Source of the DNA: Branchiostoma lanceolatum
Lineage: Eukaryota > Chordata > Leptocardii > Amphioxiformes > Branchiostomatidae
Direction: 5' to 3'
Length of the DNA stretch: 64,000 nucleotides
Assembly: GCF_035083965.1 (NCBI RefSeq)
Contig: NC_089727.1
Coordinates: forward strand, 10,049,501-10,113,500
The notes beneath the pieces were generated by a model. The model had not been told where the DNA came from, ran no database searches, and saw only the letters and a program-made list of their open reading frames with translations. A program made the translations under genes and the position numbers. Shown in pieces: positions 12,194-53,400 of the stretch (its first letter is position 1; each line of letters begins with the position of its first letter).

Positions 12194-15100
12194 ATGTTAC
12201 CCAGCAGACTCTCTCCGCCTACCGGTACTCCCTCAAACCCCATGTTGGAGGCACGGCACACGGCGGGCGCCAAGCGCTACAAGTACCTGCGCCGCATCCT
12301 CAAGTTCCGACAGATGGACTTTGAGTTCGCACTCTGGCAGATGCTGTACTTGTGTGTCGCACCACAGAGAGTGTGAGTCATTGTTTCAAAATTCAGTATG
12401 AACTAAGATTGTTAGCTTAGAAGTGTATAATCATGAAGAGTATTTGCACACATGTATGTAACCGTTACTGTTTTGTTTATAACGTTTGTGAATAATATTA
12501 GTCATCCAGGAAATTGAAGAAAAGAATTTTACAGTAATTCAATCTCTACCACTTTTTGTATTGTAATCCAGTGGTATAGATTGAATTAAAATTTATTGTT
12601 TTGTTTATTGTTTCCCAAGAGCCTAGGTGTGGAGAAAATATCACGTCTTTGGTATGCAAATGAAAGAGAATGATATACAAGTTGGACTATATAAATTATA
12701 CATGTAGAATTGTGATTTGTGGTGCAGTCCATCCCTAAAAAAAATGTGGAATTTGTCTTTATTTTACAGATACAGAAATTTCCACTACAGAAAACGTGAG
12801 TATTGATATTAAAAGGTGTCTTACTAGTAACTTATAGCTGTAGCAAGAAAATATAAGACTGCTAATCTAGCTAATTAAAGGTACCTTCATACTGTTAGTT
12901 CAGATTCAGCCGTCAAAGTCGTACAAATGCAAGGAAACTAGGCATAGCCATTAAGAATCTTGGTGATCATCTAAATTTGTTAAAAGTATCTTCTATTTTT
13001 ATCCTTTTCCAGAGACAAAAGACCAGTGGGCTCGAGATGACCCAGCCTTCCTGGTCTTGCTCAGCTTCTGGTTGTGTGGTAAGTATGACAATAGAAGAAC
13101 TGAGAAGTGTGATTCTTGTGGTGTAACTGTACACCAACGGCCAAAAGAAACCGTGACAAAAAAAGAAGCCTAAAATGACAAAAAAAAACAAGCCGAAACC
13201 CAACCTCTGCTTGTAGAGTACATGTACAAAATGTAGTTTAACTAGTCTTTGTAAACAAGCGTACAGAACTTCTTGGATAGTCTGCTACAGTTACATCATA
13301 ACAATAGATAAGCATAATTTGCAGTAGACACGGAAGCAAAAAAGAAGAGCTCCAGCTGGATTAGCTCAAGCGATGTTTGCCCTACTAGTAATGCATTGAA
13401 GATATGTAACTTAGAGTCCCTTTGTTTGGACCTATAGACGTTATAAACGTATTGATATCATCAATGCTTTGTAGTTCCATGGCAAATGCATTAAACTTTT
13501 TCCTTTCTCTTTTTCTCCTGTAGCATCTTCCCTTGGTTTTGCTATTGTGCTACAGTTGAGTGTAATGGGGATGATAAAGCTGCTCCTGTGGGTCATCTTT
13601 GTTGACTGTATCGGAGTTGGACTCATGGTAGCAACCCTACTGTGGTATGAATCCAACTTCTGTCATCAAAAAGTTATAAGGTTCAAATAATTATCAGCAC
13701 AAACATTGTACCAAAATGTTAAACTTTATACAGGTGTCTTGTGAAACCTTTTTGTATTCAATAGTTTGGTTGAGGTTATGAATATGAGTCAGAATTGTTA
13801 TTATGTTTCGCCAACGAAACCTTATGTTTCGCCAACGAAACATATTGTTTTTGTCAGGTTTCTTCTTCTCCTTCTCCTTCTCCTTCTTCTTCTTCTCCTG
13901 TCAAATCTTCAAATCGCTTCTTCTCGGTCGTCCGTCGACCAAATTAGCTGAAATTTGGTATGCAGGTAGAGTACGTGTATACCCCTAGACCCTTTTTAAA
14001 TTTTTTTGATATAACTTATTAAAATGATTTTATGGAGGTTTTTTGGTCATTTTCAGACAAAAGTCGCACATGATGGCCTCCAGTGCCGTGGTGTTGAAAC
14101 CTGAGGACCTGAAATTTGGTTTAGTTGTGCATTGGATATTTACCCAAAGGACCCCATTATTTTTTCTGGCATACACTACTTCAAAATGATTTATTTTGCA
14201 ATTTTTTAATGCAATTTTTTGTTATTTTCTGTAGGGGGCCAGCAAGAACTAGGTCATACTGTAACATAAGCCTTCCCCTGTCTGGGAGTTAAAACCAAGC
14301 AGATGTCAGGGGGTACCTCTACTAATGGTATTACAGAAAGTTATATGTACCTTATGTTACATGGTACGGATGTTATATTTGAGATGTAGGTACCCATAGG
14401 AAAGGTGACTACACCTGACAATTACTTATGCTAATGAGGACCTAATTCGCATAATGTATGCACAACGTTGTATGTCCCTTACCGTAATTGCTGCGGATGT
14501 CATCTTTGAGATGTAGGTACCTTTAGGAAAGGCGAACACACCTGGCCATAAATTATGCTAATGAGGACCTAATTTGCATAATCGATGCATGAAGTTGTAT
14601 GTCCCTTACCATAAAAGCTGCGGATGTCATCTTTGAGATGTAGGTACCTTTAGGACAGGCGAACACACCTGGCCATAAATTATGCTAATGACGACCTCAT
14701 TTGCATGGTTTATGCGTATACTTGTAATTCCCTTACCGGAAAAGCTGCACATGTCAGATTTGACATGTACGTACCGTTAGCAAAGGTGATCACACCTGGC
14801 CATGAATTATGCTAATGAGGACCTCATTTGCATAATTTAGGCAGAAACTTCTATTTCCCTTACCGTACAAGCTGCAGATGTCATATTTGAGATGTAGGTA
14901 GCTTTAGGAAAGGTGCACACGCCTGGCCATGACATATGCTAATGAGGACCTCACTTGCATAATTTATGCATGATGTTGTATTCCCCTTACTGTAAAAGCT
15001 GCAGATGTCATCTTGAACATGTAGGTACATGTAGGAAAGGTGAAAGCACCTGGACATAACTTATGCTCATAAGGACCTCATTTGCATAAATTATGCAGAA

Positions 15101-16423
15101 ACTTGGATTTGCCCAGGAGTTATTTTGGGACAGCCCACTTCTTGCATGAGGAGTATGGGCGAAACATCCTGAATTTGCTCTTAAAGCAAATGACGACCAG
15201 TCTAGTTGTAATAGTGTTTCCGTATGATATGATGGACGTAAACTTTCCATATTGTTTCTGGGCAGCACCCTCAAGTGAGGTCACAATTCATGTACTACAT
15301 GTAGTATGAGATTTTCAATTTTTTTTCTAAAAATATTTCAGAGAATGTAAGTAGTCTCACTACACATGTGTACCATTGTGACAGGTTCATTGCTAACAAG
15401 TACCTACAGACTCAGAAGTCGGACCAGGAAGTAGAGTGGGGATACGCCTTTGATGTGCACCTGAATGCCTTCTTCCCCCTACTGATCATCCTACATGTCA
15501 TACAGCTCTTCTTCATACACCGTGAGTTATACCTTACAGTGATGTTTGTAGTAGGCATGTTGTTATTGAATGTGCCTTGAAGCTGTTTTTCTTGGTAACA
15601 GTTTAAAAGTAGGTACATGTTAATTTCTTTGTTATTTTAGTGCAGGGCATCCAAAAGACAAGCTTATACCCTGTGTATGTTTTGTACTTGTTTTTCTAAG
15701 CTGTTTGTTTCCCCTCCACAGCTCTGATTGACAAAGAGTGGTTCATGTCGCGGCTGTTTGGAAACACATTGTGGCTGATCGCCCTGGGGTACTATCTATA
15801 CATCACATTCCTGGGATACAGCTGTAAGTAGACTGTCTCTTATTTAGGCTTAAGAAAAGAATGTTGTGTTTCCGGTTACATGACAAACCCTAGCAAAAAC
15901 CTGCCAACCCAAGTTTTTATTTGGATATTTTCCTGCTAATACAATTGTATTACACAATTTTCTGTGTTAGTCCATGAACCAGGACCCCAATTTCAAGTTC
16001 TATCAGCCTATTCATTTTCATTAAAGTATACTGATGTTCGATTTTGTGCCCCTCCTCATAATAAAGCAGGAAACTGCCTGGTTCATTTAGAGGCTTATAG
16101 CATGTATAAAGCTACCATACCAGAATAGCTATCATGTCAAATTACATACCACAGACTTTCTACTTTACTAAAGTCACAAGGTGAACTTTCATAGGTTGCA
16201 CCAATATGTCCTCTGCCCCATGGACTATGTCAGTATGTGTTTGAAATATGACGGTTTGTTTTCTTCCCTTGCAGCCCTCCCGTTCCTGCGCCACACAGTA
16301 GTCCTGCTGTACCCTGCCATGCTCATCATCCTGACGTTTTACATAGTCTCCCTACCTGTGGGCTGGAACTTCACCCAGGGGCTCATGTGGTTCTACAGAT
16401 ATAGAGTTGGCCATTATGTATAG
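12194..16423 (+). CDS. UNC50: UNC50, Golgi/ER multi-pass membrane protein, complete
   Basis: UNC-50/Gmh1 family protein. The family is needed for surface delivery of nicotinic acetylcholine receptors in nematodes and works with Golgi Arf-GEFs. Seven coding exons: 12194-12372, 12770-12795 (only 26 bp), 13013-13078, 13524-13644, 15385-15521, 15722-15823 and 16275-16423. All have GT-AG introns and the joined frame is open. The product is 259 residues, the same length as the human protein. The signature stretches RHTAGAKRYKYLRR, FRQMDFEFA, KQTKDQWARDDPAF and EWGYAFDVHLNAF are nearly identical to vertebrate UNC50. About five hydrophobic helices follow. The ATG at 12194 (MLPS) matches the human start. 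Intron 4 carries a large repeat block. Confidence 0.96.
13803..14336. repeat. dispersed repeat preceding the 127-bp array in UNC50 intron 4
   Basis: It starts with a doubled ATGTTTCGCCAACGAAAC, which contains short inverted symmetry (TTTCG...CGAAA), followed by a TTCTTCTCC microsatellite and a block beginning CCGTCGACCAAATTAGC. It runs directly into the tandem array, so the two may form one composite element. It contains no credible coding sequence. Confidence 0.5.
14337..15110 (+). repeat. 127-bp tandem array, about six units
   Basis: The motif ATGCTAATGAGGACCT (or a near match) begins at 14428, 14555, 14682, 14809, 14936 and 15063. A second motif, GATGTAGGTAC, begins at 14383, 14510, 14637, 14764, 14891 and 15018. 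Every step in both series is exactly 127 bp although the units differ by many substitutions. The array lies inside UNC50 intron 4. It is noncoding. Confidence 0.9.
15842..15915 (+). repeat. fragment of the 30375-30732 MITE family
   Basis: The string GAATGTTGTGTTTCCGGTTA and the nearby CCCTAGC also occur, in reverse orientation, at the right end of the TIR element in the RING-ligase intron (about 30676-30722). Only one end is recognisable here. It lies in the last UNC50 intron. Confidence 0.5.
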
Positions 16424-19969: not shown

Positions 19970-22900
19970 ATGGTGGTAGGCGAGGAAAGGACGTTTGTGT
20001 ACGGGTTGTGTTTGCTGTTGTGTGTGATGTTATGGTTCGGCTCGGCGCAGTGTATGGTCGGGGAGGACGCGGCTACAGAGTACACCAAGGCCTTTGTCAA
20101 CGTCACCTACATAGACCCCTCCACGAACAAACTCCACTCGGAGAAGGAGGAGGTCGGCGTGTACGGTAAAAACAGTCCCACTATCGAGGCCCGTGGCATC
20201 GTGGTGAACGTCGGGAACGCCTGCCGGCCACTGAGCCACATCACACCGCCCAAGAAGCAGTGGATCGCCCTGGTGGTCCGCGGGATCTGCGACTTCAGAA
20301 TCAAGATCAACCACGCCAAGAGCCTGAACGCCTCCGCTGTGGTGGTCTACAACCACGAGACGTCTCCGCCTGAAACTATGGCGCATGAAGGTGAGATGGA
20401 AAAACACAATATGGTCTGGAACAAATAAATTATGTAAGGGAGCCATGTTTGTTTGTTGTGACGGAGGGGAGAGGGGAGGGTGGGGTTTTGTAGTCAACAG
20501 GATGTCTTGTAGACAATAGAACAATCAAAATTCGCAATTATAAACAGGAAATCCCAAGACCCCATTCAGCAGCCCCCTCCCCAACCTTTGCTTTGGGCGT
20601 ATGTCGTCAAATTATTTTAAAAAGAAAACACATTCTAAGATTCTTGTTGTCCTCCACTTTCCCATGACATCCGAGGTGCCCAGCAAATAATGTCAACAGG
20701 GCAGGTAACAAACTACTACTCTCTAAGCAGAGCTAAGATCTGGGGTATTTTCTTGCGATATTTTATGTTTTTCTACTTTTCCGTTTTTAGTTGGGTCTCC
20801 TACCTGTTACCCAACTAAAAATGGAAAAGTAGGAAAACGTATAAAATACAGCGAAACTACGTCGAAAATACCCCGGATCTTACCTCTCCTTGGAGAGTAA
20901 CAGTAAGAAACCACAGGGTTGCCACATATGAGAAATCAGCCCTAGATATGCATGGTTGTACACTTGTTGTCTCCCAATTAACTTATTAAGATATGAAACA
21001 AAATTTCTGGAAATGTTATTATATTTAAAGCCGTGCATGGGCTGCAAACACCTGGGTCAATTGACCAATAACTTGAATAAGCAGTAAGATTATTAGATGA
21101 AAAAAATGACAATTTTTGGTATAAATGCAAGAAACTGGATTCCATCTACATGTATGATGTACCATGTCTAGTGTCAAAACATATGGTGAGCGCTGAGGTG
21201 TCAGATAGATCCCTGATCAAATAAACCTACCATTTTCTAACAGTTGTTCCTACCCAATCTCTGTTGGCTGTCCTGTTATTACAGAAATGTTAGATATGAA
21301 CAGTTTTTGTTTTCACTTGCTATGAAATATGTTTATTGGATGTGTATTGCACATAATGCTCATACCTGCACCTGCACCGAGGGAGTGGTCAAATACACTG
21401 AAAATTTCCATTATATGGTGTCACAAGGGATCATCATGATTCATGAGTCTCTGTTTCTGCCCATAAATTGGCAGATAACATTTCATTTTTATTTATTCAT
21501 ACAGGGAAAATATACTCTCCAAGCAGAGGTTGGTGGGGAAGATTGTGAACGTTTTATCATACGGGGCATATCATAAAACGGTCACAATCTTCGCCACCAA
21601 CATCTGCTTTGAGAGTAGCAAAATACACTCAGGCAAGCCTGTTTTTCAGGTACCCCTGGTTTCACAAATAAAAACACAAACTACAACTAATTACACAATT
21701 GTCAATTCTGCCATGTTGTGTCAAGATCCTCAACAACCGAAGAAAGAAATAATGAAGTGGAAAGGGATCTAGAATTGAACCCGACTTGATGAATTAATAC
21801 AGTAAGAGGATTATTAGCACTAGATTATCAGATCACTCAGAAAAGTCAGATGGTTCATCTAGTAAGTCTTACTTGAGGTAGTAATCCAAAATAGCAGAGC
21901 AGGTTCAGCTAGAAAACTGTGAGTACGGTAATCCTATCTGTGCTCCAGATCACATGAACAAAAGCCAGCTATGCTTTACTACACATATATCCTTTAGCTA
22001 GCTGTAGTCTATATGGAGAACCATTGCATTTAGCTGTGGCGGGACTGGGCAGACACTTGAGGTACAAGAGGACCTCTCTATTGGCCACATGTCATGTGCC
22101 TGTTGATGATGGATGGTGTTATTCAAGCTGGGAGGTCATTCATAATCATAATTGTTACATGATTTTTCCTTTTGATATCCAAGGTCCAAAATGGCCTGTC
22201 TACAATATATGTAATCTAGATTTGATGAAATGTTTGGTGTTCTGTATGAATTTGCTTGCAATTAGCAAGACAGGAAAGTCAACCTCTGAACCTGTCCATG
22301 AAAGGAGGCCAAGGTAGCAAGGAAAAAAAAAAGTTTGAAATCTTACCAGGTCCGGTAGTAGTGTGACCTTGAGACCAGACTGTATCCAAGTCTAGGTCCT
22401 TGGCTTCTGGGCCAACATGCCCCCCAGGAAACATTCCCTTCCCCTGTGACAGGTTAGTGTGTCCTATGTTCTCTGTCAAGGACACGGTAATACTAATAGT
22501 CTACTATTACCATGTTAAGATGACCTTCTAAAGGTCAGTATATGTATATCACACCCACCTGAAAGTTCAAGTTGGGTGGACCAGAAATGTTTTTAAAGAA
22601 AAAGGGTAGAGGGAGCCCCAAGCTGCCAAGCAGTTGGACATGTAGGGAGTACAAGGCTTGGACTGAGATTTTTGCCCTCGCATTCTTGAAGATAGCATAA
22701 CCTATTCTCCCCATGTCCCTAACAATAACTGTCACACATGTTTGAAAGTCAGTGCAATAGATGGTTGTACAGACCAAATAGGTTATGATATGCTATCCCA
22801 TGATAAATGTACTGAGTGAAGTTTTAAACATGTTTTCTCCAGGTTGTATTTTGTATCAAATGTTAATGTCAGTCTGAGATCTCTTTTTGTACCTTACACT

Positions 22901-25900
22901 CTTCTGTTAGTGTTACAAAGTGCTGTAAATGGAATGTATTTTCTGATAGTGGCTCTAAATTTAGTAAAAGTGCTGAAGATAGTGCGTAGGGTAAGACTCT
23001 AAGAGGAGAAACGTCACAGTGCAGTGAGATAGGTTATTCATGTCACACGTATAGATCTCTTTAGGTGCTGAAGTGTTACAAGTGTGAATCAAGTATTTCA
23101 GGTAATGTATCTCATACTTCTCTCAATTAGGTTGTGACGCACATATATTATGATAGCTTGGTATGAGAGATAAAAAATCCAGGTTGCGTTTTCTGCCTTG
23201 ACAACTTTGACTAACATAGTAACTGAAACGGTGAAAGCAGAATTGCTGGACTAATAATGATGTACTCTTTATGTAGATCTATGGTGGGGATGAAATTAAA
23301 AACATAATATTAGCAGCTTAGACAGTGTCAGATGAAATATTCTCTTCAGACTTCCCATAACTGTAATAGCTGGTAAGACTTAAGCCTTTCCTAGACCTAA
23401 AGATATCTGTCTGTTGCCTTTCTCTGTTCATAAACAACTGGTCTTTTGCCATATTTGGAAATAATCTTATTAGAGACTTATTATCTGACTCTCAAAGGAA
23501 TCCCATTCTGTATTTTCTCTTACAGCCTAGTATGGGGATTGCAATTTGACCTGTAGATTTGAATGATTGCTAGTTAGTTTGACCTAGGGGTGCTATTTAT
23601 GATAGCAAACATATGTCTGTAGGAAGATGTTCAGAATACACAGTGCGCATTTGATGATTTATTAAATAATAATAATAAGTTTATTGCAAATTCATGCCCT
23701 TAGGCTAATGGCATGTTAACAACAATGTCAAAGTACAAACAGAAACAGCCCCTCATAAAATATATATGATATAATGTACATATATATCTGTCATGACTCA
23801 TTAGATTGTTTGGCGTAGATGTACTGGGAGATTTTACTCGTTAGGAGTGATATTCTGTGTGCATTGAACCGTAACTAAGTCATAACATGGGCAGTTTAGA
23901 AATCAATAGACAGATATCAGCATAGTATTGATTAGGTTTTGCAACCAGTCATCTGCATAGTGCTTGTGTTGTCTTTTTTAAAAAGTTCTGCTGAGGAAAA
24001 AGTAAAAAAGAAATGTGACCAGTGAAATTTACAGAACTGTTGTTGTACAATGTGAAATGTACTGTTGACTGTGTTGTGTACAGTGCCATTTGAATATTGA
24101 TGTAATAATGATTTGGTGCCCTGGGGAATTACATCACGTCTGGAAATGTGACTGTTCACCAAATGTGGTCCAGACAGATTGGTTTGAGAAGCGCTTTTTC
24201 AGGGAATGTAGCAGGACCGCGATCTCATGTTTCAGCAGTAAAGTGAACAATGGATTTTTCAGCGATGACAAAAGTCGGCGTTGAATAAGTGCAGAAAATA
24301 GTATTGACAATGGGACATGGTTTTCTAAGTACAAGTAACCCAACACCAAGTGGTGCTCTTAGCATCAAGTGCAGCTTGCAGTTATGGTTTTGGCAGACAC
24401 TATTTCATATGTTATGGGTGATGTAACTTAAGAAAGGACGATCGTTACAGGTGGAAAGACTAAGAGTAGAGTTTAGGTCAGGTAGGAGGTTCCTCCAGAA
24501 AGAAGTTTGTCTTTTCCTACATCGTCTTTGAATTCCAAGTCCAGTTTTTCATTCCCCCATTACACAATCCCTGCATAGCGCATCCAGAAAAAGTGATCTC
24601 CATTGTCAGTAGGGGCTCAAACTGCAGTTCCATGTATGTAAATTACAGTATATTTGCATAACCTTGGGTAAGCTTCCTCTTGTTTACAAAGAAAAGTCCT
24701 TGGATCACAAGCCTCCTTCTTGTGGCCAATAGGAGGGCTGTCACAGATTGTTTGGGGTATCAGATTCTTGCCTAGGAATGTAGTGGAAATGCCAGATCTT
24801 CAAAGGTCACCATATTGTATACCTGAAGTGTGTGTCACTGTTCTGTACTGTACTGTACACATGTTACTGTACAATACTTCACACATGTCCTGAGGCCATG
24901 GGAACTATGGCATGAGATTAGTGATATTAGTTCCAGTCTAAGCTATGCAGACTACTCTGTTTGGAGGTCCAATCTTCTTGAGAATAACATCTGAAAAACA
25001 GGAAGCGTTGTTGTGATTCTTCCGTCAAAAAGCATGGCATAATGTAGCCTTAGTGTCATCCTGTTTAGTTCCAGGCTCTACCTTCACCAGGCTAGGCAAT
25101 AGGCATAATACCCTAAATGGCTCTATGGGTCATTCTGAAGCACACAGGTCTCACACGTTGCACAAACATGACAACAGTACAAACATTACGCCAACACAAA
25201 CTAGGCTAGACATCAACTAAACTTTTAAGTTGCGATTTGCATACATGTATGTAGGTTATATTTGTTGTGTCCTTTGTGACAAGTTCTGATATGGCATGAC
25301 TTCTCCTTTGCTTGGTATGGACTTTGCCCTGATTATACATATAATTTACTCTTCATAGGTAATGTCAGACTACACCATTTTTAAGGGCAGTTTCAATTTG
25401 GTTTGCCTGCAGCTGGTTACTGATCTGGAACACAAACACTGAAATAGGACAGCCAACCACACATGTGAAATTGAGTCAGTTAGGAAATATAGACTCAAAG
25501 AGGCACAATAGATTAAAATGTGAAAGTTTAGCAGCTGAGTCTGACCATTGATTATCTCTACATCACAAATGCATTGACTTGGCATGGTGCAGCACGGTGC
25601 AACACAACATTTTGGGGATTACTTACATGTACTTACTTATCCTCTTTGTCCCTAGGTATAACAGGCATCCTCAATTGAGGTGACCCGGGGATTGGCAATA
25701 TCTTATAGATGCAGATGCAAGTAGAAAATGATATTGATATGATAACAACACTTGTCAGTTTTGATTTGGAAAATTTGGGGATGTCTAAAATCTAATTGAT
25801 GTAAGCCACTGTGTTGCTAGGTATTGAATGATTTTAAAAAAAAGGTGTTCAAAATTTTCTCAATACATTTTGTGTCATGATGTCTTCATAACTAGAATTA

Positions 25901-28900
25901 TACTTAAGATGTTAAAGTTTGCATAGTTACTATAAACTGAAACAGATTGTCGATTCCCAACTTGTGATTTCAAATTCAACTTAACCACTGTTTGATGTAT
26001 GCGGATTATAACAACTTGTGGCCTGTTGTCTGTTCCAGGTACGGGCAACATCGTGGCCATCATGATCTCCCGTGCCAAGGGGCTGGAGATCGTCACCCTG
26101 CTGGACAACGGCACCCAGGTCATGATGCACATCACCATGGGAACACACACCCGCTACAAGGTCATCGACAAAACCTCCGTCCTCTTTGTCTCCATCTCCT
26201 TCATCGTGCTGATGATCATCTCGCTGGCCTGGCTCGTCTTCTACTACATCCAGCGGTTCCGCTACGCTCACGCCCGCGATCGCTCCCAGGTAAGCCGACG
26301 AGAGGAAAGCAGCGCCGTGATTATCACTGGAGATTAAATCTAGAGGTCAAACGTATCGTCCGCTGCCTACGTAGTTACTGCAAATTAAAAGCGTCTGAAG
26401 TATTCAAATCATGTATTCTCCCTAATTGTCATCTCCCCTTGAGATAGGAATAAGCACATGCAAATTGCTCCAGCTCCTCTTGTGCACAGGTGGTTTGTAT
26501 AGTGGGGGTTTACATGTAGGAGTCCTTGAGCAGTAAAGCTATTATCAATGTCAGACATATTTTCAAGAGCACTCAACTTATATTGTTGGGAGTCTTAGAT
26601 GCTTGTCTAACATTATTTTTTGGAGATAGAATATGGAGCTATATAGATATATGTATATAGACTCTATTTCTGGCATCACAAAACATTCTGTCTCCCAAAA
26701 AATTCTACGCTCAAAAGCAGATGTATATTCTGACAGTGACAATGTAAAAGTGCTATGACCATATTGGGGCTACAAAACTGATTTTGAAAAATCTAGCAGA
26801 ATATATTTCAGCTCTCTGTCTTGTCTAGCCTGATGCCAGACAATTCCAAAGGAAATTCCAACAGATCAATATACCTGCTTCACAGTTCAATTGCTGTGTC
26901 TCTCGTTGTTATTCCGTGGGAAATGGAAGGATTTGGTGTATAATGTGTGCGTGGCTTTAACAGCCTTCGGACAAAACCTTCATTGTGCCTCAGAGTCATA
27001 CAGGTGCTGTCACATTTAGAAAATCCTGCTGAATATGATTGGCCGCTAGGTCATACAGCGCAAAACTACCGGACCAGATCATTTGAATATTTAGAGCTGG
27101 TATTGAAGGCGACTGGCGAGTAATTGCAAAGGGTCAGAGGTTAATGGAAATAAGTGCATGTCTCAGTGTCAAGTCTGGAAACTCTTGTCATTTCTGCATA
27201 ATGCCTGGGGATTACCCAGTTTACCCAGAATATGATTGAAAGATGTTTCCCTAAAGTGATTAAATGGAAAGGAAGGTCTGATGGAAGTGATTTGAGTTGA
27301 AAATTAACCTATGTTCCGCCAGGATTTCACAGAGGCTGTCATAGCGGAGGGAAAATCAACGCTGCCAGGCCAAAAATAGCAAATTATGAGCAAAAATACT
27401 GGGGAAACAAGGGCAGAAAGACCTTAACTTCCAATTTTAGAGGGATCCCTGGTTAGCAGAGCTCCCATTTTTCAAAGAAAATAAATAAACATAGCGTCTA
27501 AAATAAAAAGGTACCAGGATTTTGAGGTGAAAAAAATAAACGTACCAATACAGTTATTTGAGAGGTGAGAGTAGTTTGTTTTCAAAATATTGAAAGCCCA
27601 AATTTCACAGTTTTTTTCTTTAATTTGTAACCTGTGTCCTTGGCTGTATTTTAGTATGTTTGAAGGGAAGACAGAGATAATTGTTTGGAATACACCAATC
27701 AGAATTATTTTAATCTAGATCTGCTGTGTGCAGCTAGACACAAATTGGTAACCCTCCAAATTTAAAGCACAATCAAACCACCAGTCATGGCTAGCATGTT
27801 GTCAGAGTAGGCATTGACTTCAAAAGTATAGTTCATCAAGTTCTCCCAAAGGAAATCAACTAATCGCTATGCCAACAGTGGAAGTATTGGACAGGACCTC
27901 ACACTGTATGAAGTGCCCATATAGGAATTACCAGTCTCCCATTGCACAACATAATGCTTACTTCACCCTTTGAATACCTTATGGTATATTGGTATGGTGG
28001 TATTGAGTTTTTTTTTTAAAGACGAATGCCTTCAGTTTTTTATTGATTACCGTCTGTGTTTTTCAGCGGCGTTTTGCAACGGTGGCCAAGAAGGCCATCA
28101 CGAAAATCCCGGTCAAGACAATACGGAAAGGGGACAAGGTGAGACTATTCGTTTGAGGATTTTGTCAATTGTGTAAAAACAGTCGTACATCAGATTAAAA
28201 ACAACAGCTTTCTTTTGTGAACATTTTCTAAGGTTGTTATGTCGTTTGTGTTAGATTGTGAAAGTGAAAGACGAGGAAATCAGAAATTTCACACGCTAAA
28301 CTTATTTTGTATCTGTCTGATGTTTCTATGGAATACATGAATTTTACCATTAAAAGCAATCATGGAAAACAGAAAGGTAGCTCAAAAGAAAATTACTTTG
28401 ATATGCTCTTGCTTTCATGTTATACCAAAGACTAATGACAGATTTTGAGTTCAAAGAAACACAATTATGTTGAAACACATGTACATGCGTACATGTACAC
28501 GTGGTGGTCTCAGTTCTTTATTTAGCTGATTGGTCTACATTTTGAAGGCCATTCTAGGAAAAAAAGGAGGGCAGGCTGGCTGAAAATAAAATGCTTTTGT
28601 GGGGTGATTCTCAAACTCCTGCAGTTTGCACTGTTTGTTGCTTTTCGTGGAAGAACCTTGAACAGACAGTTAAGTAGGACACTGAGAGACACGTGAGTGA
28701 GGCCAGGTGTGGACTTTGGTGGACTGAAGTGTTTACTCGATTACCACATGTACAAATGTAGGGCATGTATGTGGGTGTCAAGGACATACAGGAAAGGGAA
28801 TGACCACCAGTTTCACTTGTTGAAAGCACAGTGGTATGGAGAATGCCCAGAAGAACACGTCAGGAGAATCACACAAAGCATTTCCATATGAGCGCTAAAC

Positions 28901-31900
28901 AACTTCTAATCAAACATTTTGACTCTGATGGAAACAAAAATTAAGAGAAAAGTCTGATGGTGTTTCCTCTTCTCCCTATCAAACACATTCACAGACTGTG
29001 TTTTTATTTCAAGTAAGAAATTCTAGTTGTAATTGTATGCTCCTGTTTCCTTGAAAAACCCTGTACACATTTGAGAGATGATCAAAATAGGCCAGATGTA
29101 TTGGTTTTATCACCAGGTAGTAGTAGTAGCAGTATTATCCGGTATTAGATTATACTGCTGCGGGGTTCACTGACGCAGGGGTTGGCAGAAAAGGTCCTGA
29201 CCATCAAAGCACTCTCCCAGTTGCTCCAAGTGATACTAATATATCCAATTAAGGTCAATACTCTACAGGATTCATGTTTTTGCCATGTTACTTCAAGGTT
29301 TGACTGATGGTACTTCAAATGGGCAAGAAATTTTACCCAATCAAATTCTGACAACAGGACCTGTGTGGCAGTCACGTTCTTCCTAGACTAAACACATGTT
29401 GCTGATATAGACAGTAACAATCACATGTACTCGAGTGGTAGAGGGGAAAGAAAAATATGTTTCAATGTGCTCTTTATTTTCTAAATCAGAGAGTTCCTCC
29501 AGATTTTGAAGAGTGAAATCACAAAAATAGAAATTCAGTGTAGCCAAAGATATAATGCAAAAGAGCAAGATTTAACCTTGTGCCTGCTGAAGTAGCTTTT
29601 GGGCACCAAGCTTATATTGTCAATGACATTAAGGGATGTATGGTTTCAACTCAGAGGCAACACTCGATTTCGAATAAAGTTATCTTGTATCTTGTAAGGG
29701 GAAGGTTAAGCAAGCATAACAAAATAAAACACAGATTATACTTATAGCAACATTCTGCATGTACAATTTCATTTTGATGTCAGACCAATTTTCCTTGGAT
29801 AATCACATTTATCAATCAGATACACCTGAAAAGATGTAATTCTGCCAAAACAGAATGACTGAGATAATTTGCATCAGAAAATACGGTTCCATGTATATGT
29901 GAAAGAGATCCAGAAAAAAAGACTGAGGACGAAAACGAAATCTGCAGTGTCAGATATCTGAACATAACAAAATTATTCAAGCACAAGAATAAGATTTGCG
30001 CCTTTGATGTGATTAGCGAGCATTTCAAAGCTGTTTCTTCCTTTGAAGATTTGAAATGACGCAGATAAAAGTCCTTTCATTGTTTTGCTATGTCTTATGT
30101 TCACTGTTTGATATATTTTATTCAATGTGATTGTATCATGTTAATCACATTACTCAAATGAAATATTCTTGGTAGATAGGGTTGCGTCAATTTTTATGGT
30201 AAAAAAATGATGTTAGAGATTCTTCTGATATAAAGTGATTATTGCACAGGAGGTGGAATGGGAGCATGACAGCTGTGCGGTGTGCATCGATAACTACAAG
30301 CCGTCGGATGTGGTACGGGTCCTGCCATGCAAGTGAGTGGGCGTGTTACCACTGTACGCACACACAAACAGTTCGGCCTAGGGAAAAAAATGTTATGTTT
30401 CCTATTATGGTCCTGAAAAAATTAGGTTTTTAGGTAGGGATTCCCTTTGTTTTTCAGATTTCAGTCAAAGTGATTCAACAAATACACTTAATATGCTAGT
30501 AACACTGAAATGCATCAGTACATTGATACTTTCAACACCATACTATATTTTTCTCTGTTCTTTCAGAACAAACTTGTAAGACATGTTGGAAACTAGTTCT
30601 ACAACGTTTTCATCACTAATATTGGAAATTTTATGTTCCTTGCTAGCGGCTGACCCCCCTAAAAAGGCTAGGGTCGTTTTTTTTGCTAGGATCGATTGGG
30701 TAACCGGAAACACAACATTTTTTCCCTAGGCCTTACCAGGATGTTTTGCACCCAGCAGGATAATAGTTGAATGCACCCTACTGTCAATTAATTCTTTGTA
30801 ATAGGCACTGGTTACTGGAAGTTAATCTAGTCAAAATCAGTATCTATGTTTTATATGAATGACAAAAATAAAGACCAGGTCCATATAAGTTTACTGACTT
30901 TCTGAATTCCCACTATCTCTCCACGTTTGATGAGTGTGAAAACTATTGTTCTCTAGATGAAATGACCAGTTAGAATTGTTTATTGTGGTGAAAGTTGAAT
31001 TTGAAATATTGAATTTTATTGCAAATAAAGTCCATAGTTTGTAATTGCTGTTCAATGAATAGCCATGTACATTTGCCCTATAATTTGTGCCTTTTATCAC
31101 TTCTTACAATGGATACGCCAAAAATACTGACAAAAGACAGCGAATGCTGTCTGAAGCGTCTGACCGCTTCAAAATTTTATCTTGTTGCCTGGATGTCTAA
31201 CCTTCATCACCTTACAATGGATAGTTAGAGATATATTTTGTGCATATTTTCCAGGCATATATTCCACAAGCTGTGTGTGGACCCCTGGCTGATCGAGCAC
31301 AGAACCTGCCCGATGTGTAAGCTGAACATCCTCAAGGCTCTGGGCTATCTGGTAGGCACACGTACATTTACATATACTAAGGCCTCACTGTCTCACAAAT
31401 CAGACAACGTTCGAATCCTGATGTCCTAACAGCAGTACAGAAAACAATGGGGAAAATTGTAGCCTCCTTTGCATACCTTCTGGGCGGCGCTGGCATTTAT
31501 TTTGGGGGGGAGCACTGATTCAACATATCGGGCCAGGTTCTTTTGCTGGAGAAATTGTATTGCCACCCTTCTACAGAAGGCCTGCATAAGAGGGTAGAAA
31601 ATGGTAGGTCTGAAATGATGGTGCAATAGGGAGACCATATGGATAGTGAACACCTGATTTGATGCCCTAGTTCATTATGTGCCCTCGGGCCATTACTCAA
31701 TGTCCTGGCAGTACCTACGGGTATACACACATGTACAGTAGTTGTATGTGCCCCAGAAATTTAATTTCATTGAACTTTTGTGTGCCTTGGGTATTGAGTG
31801 ATATGCCTATTTATGACGTTTAGCATATTTTGCTCCTGAAAGTTGTCGATTTTCTGAAGAAGTCATACCCAGAACATTGATTGCACTCTGTCAGAAGAAG

Positions 31901-32986
31901 TTGTATCTGGAAGCTTTGGTATATTTTATGCCTGAAAGTTGTCCAATTTCAGAAGAAGGAATATTTATCTGAACGTTTCAGTGTATTTTATGCCTAAACG
32001 TTTTCCACTTTCAGAACAAGTTATATCTGGAAGGTTCTGTGTATTTAAATGTCCCTGAAAGTTGTCCATGTTCAGAAGAAATTACAGCTGAAATGTTCTC
32101 TGCATTTGATGCCTGAAACTTGCCTATTTGTCGTCGCAGGTTCCCAGCAGCACAGAGAGTCTAAACATCGACGTGGAGGCAACCACCACCAACGGCTCTT
32201 TCCTGGGTAACGACACCGAGGACGAGTCGGTGGACCAGGACTCGGCCTGGAACAACATCGTCACCGTGGCGCTGCCCCCTCCGGACCCAGTGGCCACGCA
32301 GGAGAGCCAGGGCGGCGACCAGAGCATGGAGACTGATGACGACCAGCCTTCCCCTGCTGTGGTCATGTCTGAAACAGGCACAGGTAAACAATCTGTCCAA
32401 CAGTACATTCTACATCTACAGGTCTGAAAAAGGCACAGGTAAAAAACCTGTCCAACCGTACATTCTACATCTACAGGTCTGAAAAAGGCACAGGTAAAAA
32501 ACCTGTCCAACCGTACATTCTACATCTACAGGTCTGAAAAGGCACAGGTAAAAAACCTGTCCAACTGTACATTCTACAGCTGCAGATTTGAAAAAGGCAT
32601 TGGTGAAAAACTTGTACAACAGTACATTCTACAGCTACAGAGAGGCCTTACAGAATACATTCACACCAGGTGAAGCTAGGGGCAAGAAAATCTGTAGATA
32701 GGTAGTGTTCCAAAAGCCTGATTTCTCCATAATTTATGTCCAGACCACTGAACTAATGTCAGTCTTACAGAGTCATTATCCTTCCAGTCTTGGTGAAATC
32801 TAGAGATGTATACTCCCAGCCTTGAAAGTGATAAGCTTTACAATCTGCTCTTTTCCACCTGTAGAGATGACAGAGAGATTACCTACTGGGGACGTGGATC
32901 AGGAGAGTGGCTCCGAGGGCATCCAGCTCTCTCCGACTGACCAGCCCGCTGCAGACAGCAACGCTAACCCTGCAGTCACTGTGTGA
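19970..32986 (+). CDS. RNF130/RNF150: Goliath-type PA-TM-RING E3 ubiquitin ligase (RNF130/RNF150 orthologue)
   Basis: Endosomal membrane E3 ubiquitin ligase. Seven coding exons: 19970-20390, 26039-26289, 28067-28138, 30250-30332, 31255-31351, 32140-32383 and 32865-32986. The joined frame is open and gives 429 residues; human RNF130 and RNF150 have about 420-440. Order: signal peptide about 1-28 ([14 protein letters not shown]); lumenal PA domain about 35-175 with GNIVAIMI near its end; membrane helix [20 protein letters not shown]; basic linker; C3H2C3 RING from CAVC (257-260) through PCKHIFH to CPMC (294-297); acidic, Ser/Gln-rich tail. The RING is split by an intron after the first His-bearing segment. 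Membrane and RING segments are nearly identical to both vertebrate paralogues, so I leave the symbol open. Exon 6 lies between two tandem arrays. Confidence 0.95.
20719..20897. mobile_element. TA-flanked hairpin element, CTCTC terminus
   Basis: The left arm CTCTCTAAGCAGAGCTAAGA (from 20719) pairs with the right arm ending at 20897, whose reverse complement begins CTCTCCAAGGAGAGGTAAGA. Pairing continues through GGGGTATTTTC and the CTACTTTTCC/GGAAAAGTAG block to the loop near 20810. TA flanks both ends. It lies in RNF130/150 intron 1. Confidence 0.75.
21515..21615. mobile_element. TA-flanked hairpin element, CTCTC terminus, short
   Basis: The left arm CTCTCCAAGCAGAGGTTGGT and the reverse complement of the right arm, CTCTCAAAGCAGATGTTGGT, match with a few substitutions through GAAGATTGTGA and CGTTTTAT to a loop of about 15 bp near 21565. 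TA flanks both ends. Apart from the terminus, the interior is unrelated to that of 20719-20897. Confidence 0.8.
21618..26038. other. RNF130/150 intron 1, remaining sequence
   Basis: This is the rest of a 5.6 kb intron. It is mostly unique AT-rich DNA. The only structured item I can support is the retroelement tail at 23655-23765. Open frames are short and match nothing recognised. Confidence 0.5.
23655..23765 (-). repeat. possible non-LTR retroelement 3' end
   Basis: Read on the minus strand the block has GCCATTAGCCTAAGGGCATG, then TTTGCAATAAACTTATTATT and a (TTA)n tail. This layout (a short 3' UTR, AATAAA and simple-repeat tail) is typical of Jockey/CR1/L2-type insertions. No coding sequence remains. 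Confidence 0.4.
26290..30249. other. RNF130/150 introns 2 and 3
   Basis: Noncoding sequence surrounds the 72-bp exon at 28067-28138. I see AT-rich unique sequence and a weak retroelement-like tail near 29660-29697 (GAATAAAGTTATCTTGTATC). No extra exon is supported. Confidence 0.5.
30375..30732. mobile_element. TIR element (MITE), about 350 bp
   Basis: The left end GGCCTAGGGAAAAAAATGTT (from 30375) and the reverse complement of the right end (GGCCTAGGGAAAAAATGTTG, to 30732) form inverted repeats of about 27 bp. Taking TA as the target duplication puts the ends at 30381 and 30726. It carries no transposase. It lies in RNF130/150 intron 4. A one-ended relative occurs at 15842. Confidence 0.75.
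31105..31226 (+). repeat. dispersed double-hairpin element, copy A
   Basis: Two adjacent perfect stems occur: GACAGC/GCTGTC around GAAT (31136-31151), then GAAGCG/CGCTTC around TCTGAC (31153-31170), followed by AAAATTTTATC. The same layout recurs at 55395-55495. The left flank ACAATGGATACGCCAAAAAT is close to an inverted match to the right flank of copy B, which suggests terminal inverted repeats. It lies in RNF130/150 intron 4. Confidence 0.7.
31835..32128 (+). repeat. diverged tandem repeat of about 60 bp abutting a splice acceptor
   Basis: The motif CCTGAAAGTTGTCC and relatives recur near 31838, 31930, 31993, 32053 and 32112, each time followed by TTCAGAAGAA-type sequence and a TTTATG or TTTGATG end. 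The last partial unit runs into the acceptor of the exon starting at 32140. Confidence 0.7.
32367..32640 (+). repeat. 55-bp minisatellite spanning an exon end and its splice donor
   Basis: Five units start at 32367, 32422, 32477, 32532 and 32586, with lengths of 55, 55, 55, 54 and 55 bp. The first unit contains the last 17 coding bases of exon 6 and its donor (ACAG then GTAAAC). Each later unit repeats a donor-like ACAG/GTAAAA, and each unit ends in CTACAG or CTGCAG, an acceptor-like sequence. Confidence 0.9.
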
Positions 32987-43855: not shown

Positions 43856-46628
43856 TTAAGTGTGAGGCATAACAACTGCTGACTTCAGTTTTTGTCCAGA
43901 TATCTTCTGTCTCAGTTCTTCTCTGTGCTGCTCTTCCTCTTTGTATTTCCTCTTCTTCAGCCCTCGTACCAGTTTTTCTCTCAACTGTTCCTCTTTCTTT
44001 TGTAGTTCTTTCTGCTTTCGTTCCTCCTCTTTCTTCTTTTTCAGTTCTTCCTCTTCCTTTTTTCTCCTCTCGATGGCGAGCTGCCGTAGACGTTCCTGCT
44101 CCAGCTCCTGTTCTAGTCTCTGAACTTCCTGCTGCTGTTTTACCACCTGTGGAAGAAACACGCTTGATATAGGAAACCACCTGTTCAACTTGATTTTCTT
44201 TGTTGTTGTCCTTTTGCAAAATGCACAGTAGGATATACTACCAACATATTTTAACTGTGCTACCATTGTACAGCAGCTGCAAATTCTCAACCAGTTCATG
44301 TTGTAATCAACAGACAATTGTCAATGCATGTCCTCATTCAAACATGAAAGTTTACAGCAAATAGTATAAGTTGAGGCAAAATAGCTTCCTGCACAGACCT
44401 TCTGGGTGGCTAAACCATGTTGAACATTTCAAACCAGCACACACACATACCCCAACACAAACAAATGCTGGCTGCACCTAAAAGGTCTCATAGGAGGCTT
44501 GAAGTAAATTCCCCCCCCCCACACACACACACCATTTTGGGTTAACACTGACAGTACCTTTGCTCTCTTGAAGAGTTCTGTCAGTAGTCTGATGGACTCC
44601 AGTTTCCTCTGTGCAATGAGGATCCTCCTCTCCTCCTGGGCTATCTTCTCCTGTAGCTGCCGCTGCTCCTCCTCACGTTTCTTCTCCAGTTTCTTCTCCC
44701 GGCGTTTCTCCTCTCTGTACTTCATGCGCTCCTCACGCCTTCTGAGCTTCTCTTCCCGTTTCCTTTCTCTTTCCTTCTCCTCGTCTTCTTTTTTCTTCCT
44801 ACATTGGATAGATAAAAATGACCCACAAGACATAAATGAAAACTTAATGTGACTCATAGTAGTCATACACTAAGCGACTCACTCAGTTTTAGATCAATTC
44901 TTGTATCTACATTAAGTCAAGTTTAGCTCTGTACAACACGAAAGGTTTCATTCATTGATGTTTTTATAATCTAAGTCCTATGTGTCAGTTGTAATTTTCC
45001 ATGTTTGTGTTTTGTAAGATATTGTACAATGTACGCGATTCAGCTACGTTGTACGTGTTAATAAAGCTTTCATTCATCCATCCATTCATTCACTCACTTG
45101 TACTCAAAGCTTTTCGAATTCTAAGCCTTGTAATTTGTAGTTCTTGAGAAATGACACTTCACAACAACAACAAAATTGACAGCTTATATTTTAATTACCT
45201 TTCCTCCTCCTTCTTGCGCTCCTCTTCCTCCCTCTCCTTCCGTTTCTCCTCCTCCCGCTGGTGTTCTAGCTCCTGGAGTTTCGCCCGCTCCAGCCGGCGC
45301 TTTCGGAGGGCCTTGTCACTCAGGTGACCACTTTTGTCGAAATCCACCTGCAGAGAAAAGTATGTGTGTTAACGTAAATGTCTTAAAGTTCGTGGGGATC
45401 TGATTTTGTGGTAGAAAGAAAATGGAGTGTTTGTGGTGGTTTTAAGTTCGGGTTAAAACAATAGGGTAGGTGGGATGAAGACAGAACAAGTAGTTTAAGG
45501 GTGGTTTTAAGTTAGCAGTAAAGAGGTCATCGCAAAAACCATGCACATTTAAGTTCAAGTTTATTAACCACTGCAAAACTTTTAACATAGTAGTCAGAGG
45601 GAGTTTGGAGAGGTCACAGGACAAAAAAGTTGATATTTCTTTCATCTATGTGACATGTCACCTACCTTGATGTTAGATGTAGCAGCCTTGCCATCATCAC
45701 CCTTGTACATGAGTTTCATTCCCTTCAGGTGCTCCATACAGTTCACAAAGCCGATGTACTCCTTAAACTGTATATATGCCTCAAATGTCAAACTAGTTCC
45801 TAATGAGGAGAATGAAGAAAAGGTGTTGAAGTTTCCCGTCCTGTTCTCCTGCCTGTACGGGTCCAACATTGGAATGTCCACGCGACGGACTTCCCCAAAT
45901 GTTGCGAAAACTTTCTTGAGGACGTGCTCGCTGGCTTTGTCGCTGTCTTTAGATGCAGTAAACCACTTGCACGGGAGACCTTCGAAGTGGACGGTGTCCG
46001 GCCTCTCTCCCGCGACGGTCTCGTTCATGAACTTGGCGTCCCTGAAGTGCGAGTCCCACTCGTGGCGTGTGGGGAAGACCACCTTGGCCTCAGCTGCCCG
46101 TACCTTCAGCATCTCAGAAAAACCACTTAGCTTGATGGTCTTACCGTCCAACCTGGCCACCATGGTCTTCAGGAGGGACTTGGCCTCAGCTTCTCCTTCA
46201 AACCTGGGGAAAAGCACAGCGTTGTCACACAAATTGGTTTAATTGTAGGTGTTGGTTGGAGAGCTGGGTGGGTGGGTGTGATGTTGTAATATCTTTTGTT
46301 CTCTTCTATCTAATTGCATTTCGTGGTGAATTTACACCAGAAAAATGATGAAAACAATATCTACTTTTGTTCTTTAAATGATCTTTTAACCTTACCTGAT
46401 GAACTCCAGTGTGCTCTTGACCACCTTGAGCAGCGAGAAGGTGTCAGGTTTGACCATGGCCTTGATGCGTTCCATCACCTCCCAGTTTGAGATGGACTTG
46501 CCGGGGGTTTTGAGCTGGGGCAGCGACACGCTCACATTCAGGCGTGCAATGGGCTTCAGCCACAGGCCCTGCTGGGGGTACAACTCTACGGCCTCCGTGG
46601 TGTCCAGACACGGCGTGGAGGCAGCCAT
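43856..46628 (-). CDS. AKAP17A: AKAP17A, A-kinase anchor / splicing-associated protein
   Basis: Nuclear-speckle protein (also XE7/SFRS17A) that binds protein kinase A regulatory subunits and affects splicing. Five exons on the minus strand: 46628-46396, 46203-45666, 45347-45199, 44798-44558 and 44146-43856. The product is 483 residues. Conserved blocks include KSISNWEVMER, LDGKTIKLSGFS, ERPDTVHFEGLPCKWF and NVDIPMLDPYR-like VDIPMLDPYRQE, the last two in an RRM-like region (about 150-257). From about 270 the chain is a long Lys/Glu/Arg coiled coil with AQRKLESIRLLTELFKRAK, the region that resembles the human PKA-binding helices. The stop codon follows soon after the coiled coil, so the long RS-rich C-terminus of the human protein (about 695 residues) is missing from this model. 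It is divergent from RARS1. Confidence 0.93.
44930..45100 (+). repeat. possible retroelement 3' tail with CATT/CATC repeats
   Basis: TTGTACGTGTTAATAAAGC leads into a run of CATT and CATC units (about 45070-45098) in an AKAP17A intron. It looks like the segment at 11930-12105. No coding sequence is present. Confidence 0.35.
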
Positions 46629-50400: not shown

Positions 50401-53400
50401 TGCTATTGTGTGTGCTCTAGGTGGAGATTGCTGGTCCAGGATTTATCAATATCCACATCCGCAAGTCTTTTGTCTCTTCCATCCTTTCCACGGTGCTGCG
50501 AGAAGGCGTCAAACCTCCGCCCGTGGACAGGAAACTGAGGGTCGTCATCGATTACTCGTCGCCAAACATTGCAAAAGAAATGCATGTGGGACATCTGCGG
50601 TCCACGATCATCGGGGACAGCTTCTCTCGGCTGATGAAGTTTGTTGGGCATGATGTCCTTGGGTAGGTTTGGACATGTTCAGAAAGTGCTTCATGTTAGA
50701 ACTGTTATTTTTGCAAACTTTTCACCTTTTAATGAATAATTTAAAAGGTTTATGGATGTTAAAACAGCTGCTGAAAAGTGTTATTTCTGCTTTGTTATGG
50801 AGAAGTATGATGTCATTACCTGTGGTGCTGCACATCAAATGTTATGTCAATATAAGACAATTTTGAGGAAATCGTTTTGTTTGTGGCAAGGGAAAGTGTT
50901 TGAACAGCAGGTCTTATATCTTGTATCTTCTGTTTGTTTTATAACCTATTATTTGTCGAGTCCTCCTGATTTCAGCTGCATAGATTTTACATCAAAGTGA
51001 AAGTAACTGAAATAAGAACACTTGCTGATAACAGATTTGAAGACATAGAGACATTCCAATATTGTTGTACATGTACAATTTTTTTTTCCTGCGATAAGGT
51101 TGAACCATGTAGGAGACTGGGGGACCCAGTTTGGAATGCTGATTGCCCATCTTCAGGACAAGTTCCCAAACTATGTGTCAGTTTCACCACCCATCGGTGA
51201 CCTACAGGCATTCTATAAGGTACTGGCCATTGTACTCTCATTTTTTTCTTTACAGGGAAGTGCCAGCAAAATATTTACCTTTAAAGTAAGGTTTGACCTA
51301 TATTTGCTTTATACATATATAATGGAACACGGGGTATTCCGTATCACCCGCGGTACGGCCGTCGGGCGATCCAACCCGCGGGAGGGCTGGGACTGAGGGT
51401 GATGTGTGATAACCGTGTTGTATTCTATTCTTAATTTTTGGAGCTTACAAAGTTACGAAGATTGTACTACTGTACTTTTGCAACTATACTTTTTCTATAT
51501 TGTTTCTTACCAATTGTGTGACAACGTATGAGTATTTCTATGTAACAAATTAGGTTAGAAACTTAATAAAAAATAGATTCTGTGTTTTTTGTTTGCTTTA
51601 GGAGTCCAAGGTCCGGTTTGATAATGACGAGGAGTTTAAGAAGCGTGCGTACTCCTGTGTGGTGAAGCTGCAAAGTCGGGAACCAGACATCATCAAGGCC
51701 TGGAACCTCATCTGTGATGTCTCCAGGAATGGTGAGCAGACCCCTACATGCACTTCCATTTTGATTACTTTTATTATCTCCCTCACCCAAAAATTTTCAC
51801 AAACTTCCCTTATCCTGAACTTTTTAATAATTCTAATTAATCTCATGGCAATCTAAATCCACTTGAAACAGTGCAATAATGTCAACTCAAGATTTCTTGT
51901 TGTTCAGATTGTTTTTACACCATCTATTTGTCTCAAAAGGATACTTCTACCTAACATCCCAATTTTCTTACAATGTTTTTACTACAGTATATATTACATG
52001 TGAACACCAGAGGGTAGAATGATCTTATTGGATAATTTGGACTTATGCAACTTACAGTACTGCAGCTTGCTACTAAGTGTTAAAACTAAAAGATGTCCAA
52101 AGGAAATTTCACCAAGAATCATACATGTTCATGTACATTTAAACTGGACAAAGTTCTCATGTTTAGACCTAATATTCCCCAGAGTTCCAGAAGGTGTATA
52201 ACCAGCTGGACATCCATGACTTGTTGGAGCGGGGAGAGTCCTTCTACCAGGACAGGATGGTGCAGGTGGTCAAAGAACTGGAGGAAAAAGGTACTGTAGA
52301 TTCTATGATATTGAAATGGTATGATAAATTTATCCCTGCAGTCCAGTAGAGATAAACTGTTGTACATTGCTAAGATTAGGGATGAGTACCGGTTACACTG
52401 GACCGGTTCTGGACCTGTAAAAACGTTCAGGTCCAAAAAACTGAAACCAAGTGATTCGGTACTGGACCGTTAAAAAAATCTAGCACACACATATCTTTTT
52501 CATTCTAGACCATCTTAAACCTTCCAGAGATCATGAAATTTGCACTCAAAAAAGACAAAAACATTACCATCCATGGGCCAGTGTCAGGCCAGGAGGAAAT
52601 GTCATGTATACACAGATCATTGAGCTTCAATGCACAGAGCTGGGATTGGTCTTGGAGAAGGCTTCAGGCATTTATAGCCTTATAAGGCCCTTCTCTTTGC
52701 TGATGTAATCATAATTGATGACAGTGTATTGTTCAAGGGGACTTTTTCTGACATGATTTTTCGTGGAAAGCATTTTGTTGTTCTGTTTAAGTCCCAAAGA
52801 GTTTTGTTGAAGTCTCATTGGTTAAGAAATGTAACAAATGGCGTTTTGTTTTCCCCCAGGCCTGTTGAAGGAAGAGGAGGGTCGTAAAGTCCTGTTCACC
52901 GATGTCTCGTCCGTTCCCCTGACCGTGGTGAAGTCGGACGGCGGGTACACGTACGACACGTCGGACATGGCCGCCATCAGGCAGCGTCTGGAGGAGGAGC
53001 GCGGAGACTGGCTTATCTACGTGGTGGACTCAGGACAGGTAAAAACAAACACAGGACCTAGACTAAGTGTACTCTGATGTGTGGACTCATTATTGGTTAC
53101 ACCCCTATCAAGGATGGTCCAACACCCCTATGGGTTTGGGTTTTATGTGACTCTGCTTACATGACTTATGTCACAGTGGTATACTCGCTTTGGAAGCAGG
53201 TGAATTCCTTGTGTAAGCACCCTTCATCAACTATTTTTGCTATTTATTAGTTTGGCTGTTCAGCGCGCACAGCCAGGGCTGCCCAACTAGTCTGTTGCTA
53301 TTACAAAGGGCTTGCCCTGCTGACAAAGGCAAGACAAGACAGTACAATAGAATTTTAACATGGACAGCATGATGAGCTACAACAATATTCTGAGTGCATG

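Follow-up and report, generated by a model that had tools for sequence, protein, structure and literature searches.

A 55-bp minisatellite across the end of exon 6 in a lancelet PA/RING E3 ligase gene is probably a donor-side mirage with silent copies

In a gene of the lancelet Branchiostoma lanceolatum, a tandem repeat carries the end of an exon, its splice donor and an acceptor-like AG in several copies, and the question raised by this locus is whether the copies are used as microexons or are simply removed with the intron. The stretch analysed, referred to here as the window, comprises 64,000 nt of contig NC_089727.1. Tandem repeats lying across exon/intron boundaries are a published class in amphioxus, known as mirages (PMC3087553, PMC3902484). 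Described cases are Adh3 (Canestro et al. 2002, as cited in later papers), the globins BflGb6 and BflGb9 (PMC3087553), and PGBD5 and troponin C (PMC3902484), with units of 10-72 bp in Adh3, 60 and 108 bp in PGBD5 and 150-160 bp in the globins (PMC3087553, PMC3902484). AG/GT signals are reported in many copies of a mirage, haplotypes with 6 and 3 units have been described, and the inner units are said to be homogenised, with the edge units exempt (PMC3087553). Somatic instability has been reported for the Adh3 mirage. In lancelet PGBD5, the 60- and 108-bp repeats lie at splice sites and differ in copy number between two assemblies, and a gene model was reported to have taken them as exon, without EST or mRNA support (PMC3902484). 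In the amphioxus genes examined, splicing is reported to proceed undisturbed despite mirages (PMC3087553, PMC3902484), as RT-PCR together with data on Adh3 suggests (PMC3087553), and it has been proposed that a mirage copy may become a real exon (PMC3087553). The core idea of an earlier note on this DNA, namely cryptic exons in a boundary repeat of variable length, is already in print for these sister cases.

The host gene (19970-32986) has seven exons joined in an open spliced frame of 1290 nt including the stop (429 aa), and six introns of 481 to 5648 nt, all GT-AG. A PA domain at residues 96-158 and a RING finger at 255-298 were found with Pfam, and among 42 matches to solved structures the best was RNF13 (residues 232-304), with RNF128 matching the PA part (33-176). 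Goliath-type E3 ligases have this layout. Exons 1-6 end in codon 390, which leaves about 92 residues between the RING and the array site, whereas the earlier note had placed the site just after the RING. Exon 7 was called from its open frame and acceptor score.

TRF describes the array as a repeat of period 55 at 32367-32640, with 5.0 copies and 91% matches, which is clearly beyond chance (Table 1). The five units are 55, 55, 55, 54 and 55 bp long, and in the 55-bp unit 17 bp from the end of exon 6 are followed by 38 bp from the start of intron 6. No difference separates units 2 and 3 (55/55); unit 1 shares 51 of 55 positions with these two, and unit 5 is divergent (44-46 of 55 positions against units 1-4). 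The boundary of exon 6 (CAG/GTAAAC) falls within unit 1 and the frame through it is open, whereas units 2-4 each read CTACAG, then 17, 17 and 16 nt, respectively (50 nt in sum), then GTAAAA. The earlier note had read the exon end in unit 1 and the cassettes of units 2-4 correctly from the letters, including the multiplication of a real donor and an acceptor-like AG; its array of potential microexons stands for units 2-4 but omitted unit 5, which brings the cassettes to four and is the weaker one (CTGCAG, then 17 nt, then GTGAAA). From each donor to the next acceptor the gap is 38 nt in all four cases between units, and the final gap, from the donor of unit 5 to exon 7, is 262 nt. Among the TRF rows inside the ligase gene, an exon boundary is contained only in the two that describe this array.

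Table 1. Coordinates of the 55-bp array units and of the neighbouring features of the ligase gene.
Feature	Position	Strand	Content
Older degenerate 62-bp tandem array	31891..32129	+	intron 5 only; stops 10 nt short of the acceptor of exon 6
Exon 6	32140..32383	+	PA/RING E3-ligase gene; open spliced frame, domains
Unit 1	32367..32421	+	17-nt end of exon 6 (to 32383), then the 38-nt start of intron 6 with the true donor GTAAAC
Unit 2	32422..32476	+	potential 17-nt microexon (32422-32438), GTAAAA donor and spacer of 38 nt
Unit 3	32477..32531	+	same sequence as unit 2; potential 17-nt microexon (32477-32493)
Unit 4	32532..32585	+	54 bp; potential 16-nt microexon (32532-32547)
Unit 5	32586..32640	+	divergent; potential 17-nt microexon (32586-32602), weak, with GTGAAA donor
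Exon 7, last coding exon	32865..32986	+	40 residues and stop; open frame, acceptor score 5.69

Set beside the published mirages, the array is alike in lying across an exon/intron boundary, in keeping AG and GT signals in many copies (CAG before and GTAAAA after the potential microexon in units 2-4, weaker in unit 5), in a unit length within the published range, and in its pattern of identical units in the middle and a divergent one at the edge. It differs from them in its host gene, which is not among the described cases given above, in a unit that holds a donor together with an acceptor-like AG, making each copy a whole small cassette, and in the presence of a second, older array beside the acceptor of exon 6. 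That 62-bp array was considered as an acceptor-side mirage and rejected, since it covers the end of intron 5 and not the start of exon 6: the intron end aligns with it at a score of 35, reached in 0 of 500 shuffles, whereas the exon start aligns at a score of 12, reached in 499 of 500. Exon 6 is therefore flanked by repeats on both sides, with the boundary spanned on one side only.

Whether the copies could serve as exons was approached first through their splice sites, with an untrained, vertebrate-like matrix on which all donor and acceptor scores given here rest. The true donors of the host gene score 3.38 to 7.60, with the exon 6 donor at 3.45; those of units 2-4 score 2.76 and that of unit 5 scores -0.99. 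The acceptors of units 2-5 score 2.9, 4.05, 4.05 and 1.25, all below the acceptor of exon 7 but above the true acceptor of exon 4 (-1.15). The donor scores and the complete cassettes of units 2-4 speak for the proposal that the copies are alternative microexons and that repeat number shifts the isoform mix of the ligase, as do the published suggestion that mirage copies can turn into exons (PMC3087553) and the intronic VNTR of ABCA7, whose length can track splicing (PMC5954066). Cassettes as such are not rare: when those of 3-27 nt were counted on both strands of the window, with the weakest of units 2-4 as threshold, 21 comparable ones were found, 18 of them outside the array. Judged as regulated neuronal microexons (3-27 nt between sites), the copies have moderate site scores and lack a branch consensus. 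A YTNAY motif within 60 nt was found for none of the five array acceptors and for all six true acceptors of the host gene, but the motif is also missing for 155 of 411 YAGs in the introns of this gene, and the array copies count as about one event. The UGC motif described near the acceptors of fly eMIC exons (PMC8797185) has its TGC counterpart in the spacer before unit 5 and in none of the three spacers before units 2-4.

The spacing of the units sets a further limit. A 38-nt intron is required whenever unit 2 or two neighbouring units are included, and three such introns would be needed for units 2-4 to be included jointly. In human, introns of 43, 49 and 56 nt are reported as spliced, 43 nt being the shortest length for which RT-PCR supports splicing, and a 37-nt intron was counted as confirmed from one sequenced cDNA, being unspliced in RT-PCR and absent in RNA-seq (PMC4463651). 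The use of neighbouring copies is weakened, as the gaps lie at the edge of known human introns, the host being a lancelet. Serial inclusion is judged unlikely with all four gaps at 38 nt, the 37-nt human intron keeping it conceivable. Single inclusion of unit 3, 4 or 5 involves first introns of 93, 148 and 202 nt and so escapes this constraint. Several of the controls against microexon use are weak singly; the earlier note's suggestion that the copies may be used in this way is unsupported, and the 38-nt gaps, the acceptors weaker than that of exon 7 and the lack of a branch consensus partly contradict it. With other mirages reported to be silent (PMC3087553, PMC3902484), we regard it as unlikely.

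The products that inclusion would give were predicted for all combinations. When the 15 non-empty combinations of units 2-5 were translated, 13 converged on one protein of 396 aa that lacks the tail from exon 7, unit 4 alone gave 419 aa, and units 4 and 5 together gave 440 aa in frame. Rare or low-level single inclusion of copy 3, 4 or 5 would cause the 40-residue exon 7 tail of the ligase to be lost or replaced, and if exon 7 is the last exon, as is presumed, such products would be expected to escape nonsense-mediated decay. Splicing could instead end exon 6 at one of the downstream donors, or intron 6 could be retained. All four extensions and the retained form run to one common stop, giving a 403-aa protein, and the scores of donors 2-4 are not far apart from that of donor 1 (2.76 against 3.45); these donors are nevertheless the weaker ones and lie in stronger predicted hairpins, and we hold such ends to be highly improbable.

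Folding predictions give donors 2-4 a hairpin of -10.1 kcal/mol each and the true donor one of -7.5 kcal/mol. Outside the array, a hairpin at least as strong as -10.1 kcal/mol with at least five of the nine donor bases paired occurs at 10 of 7943 GTs. The hairpin over the true donor (32376-32400) is matched in strength by 115 of the 7943, and use of this donor might depend on the predicted local structure. Local accessibility (W150) is 0.047 for the true donor, 0.002-0.004 for donors 2-4 and 0.060 for unit 5, and this measure does not separate used from unused sites, because the five other true donors of the host gene lie at 0.000-0.029. When folding is global, the main pairing partner of the true donor is 32877-32884 in exon 7 and not the local hairpin, so the hairpin argument depends on folding being local.

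Copy number is plausibly variable at this locus, by analogy with the published amphioxus mirages, and a splicing switch that depends on it can be envisaged, in which each unit beyond the second would add a chance of single microexon inclusion, most outcomes would converge on the tail-less ligase, and individuals (or cells) would differ in their dose of truncated ligase. An effect of copy number through the folding of the true donor was sought in silico in 8 arrays of 1 to 10 units. Local accessibility of this donor ranged over 0.047-0.076 (W150) and 0.017-0.045 (W240) with no steady trend, and mean accessibility under global folding fell from 0.45 to 0.27 once unit 2 was present and stayed flat thereafter. 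This route was rejected, as no steady dose effect appeared over the series, and this also counts against microexon use. We regard such a switch as improbable.

The number of units could also be a product of assembly, for example two merged haplotypes, and not a real allele. Mirages have been reported as misassembled (BflGb6, PMC3087553), and for PGBD5, different assemblies are described that give 7 units in place of 2 and 6 in place of 3 (PMC3902484). However, re-sequencing is reported to have upheld the PGBD5 repeats (PMC3902484), and the divergence of units 1, 4 and 5 in the present array is unlike the simple duplication of one read stretch. We hold this explanation to be very unlikely.

Three other systems resemble the array in part. 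Tandem duplication of AGGT proto-splice sites has been modelled as a source of introns (the Rogers model, cited in PMC3087553), with a case described in potato (PMC4974935), and a duplicated segment edged by AG and GT could likewise turn into intron plus exon; here, the repeated boundary is already an exon end, and no new intron is evident at the array. AGGT at unit boundaries is shared with the dual-specific splice-site array described for UBC, in which the sites delimit coding monomers (PMC10809524), but the AGGT of the present array scores poorly in the second role (donor 0.4; acceptor -3.81 to -6.84), and dual specificity is disfavoured on score. The ABCA7 VNTR is alike as an intronic tandem repeat with a possible effect on splicing, and unlike in that its abstract mentions no exon boundary within the repeat (PMC5954066). 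A comparison of the unit core with viral contigs gave no matches, which is uninformative for an animal gene.

Elsewhere in the window, a 127-bp tandem array with internal inverted repeats (14369-15110; 5.8 copies, 83% matches) was seen, together with a palindrome at 54880-55080, whose two 97-nt arms are 98% complementary and 7 nt apart. The palindrome looks like a young foldback element. Downstream of it, at 55147, begins an exon that, from its motif, presumably belongs to an arginyl-tRNA synthetase. Tandem repeats at 54985-55021 and 55051-55106 were rejected as boundary repeats, since they overlap or abut the palindrome and end before that exon. A single uninterrupted frame at 4781-6757 (658 aa) carries LRR and TIR domains and is Toll-like-receptor-like, and domain matches were obtained to the GTP-binding domain of EF-Tu (9160-9372, minus strand), the RNA-binding domain of AKAP-17A (45642-46238, minus strand) and the catalytic domain of arginyl-tRNA synthetase (50421-50663, plus strand). 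Neither an Rfam scan nor a tRNA scan gave a match.

Altogether, the array is best read as a donor-side mirage whose copies 2-5, all within intron 6, most likely remain silent, a reading to which we give a probability of about 0.8. On this reading, tandem duplication of a stretch reaching from the last bases of exon 6 into intron 6 yielded the minisatellite, copy 1 continues to provide the real end of the exon together with its donor, and copies 2-5 would be removed with intron 6 by the splice from 32383 to 32865. We infer the silence of the copies from their 38-nt spacing, acceptors below that of exon 7, the lack of a branch consensus and the stronger predicted hairpins at donors 2-4.

Mirages provide a natural setting in which to ask how the spliceosome selects one of several almost identical donors within a few dozen bases of each other, and they have been proposed to give rise to new exons and introns. 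To the known mirages, the array in the ligase gene adds a host gene, a compact unit of acceptor, microexon and donor, and predictions of silence drawn from the short spacing, the missing branch consensus and the hairpins at the donors. Should the copies nevertheless be spliced in, the ratio of isoforms of an E3 ligase would be governed by a repeat for which hypervariability is expected.
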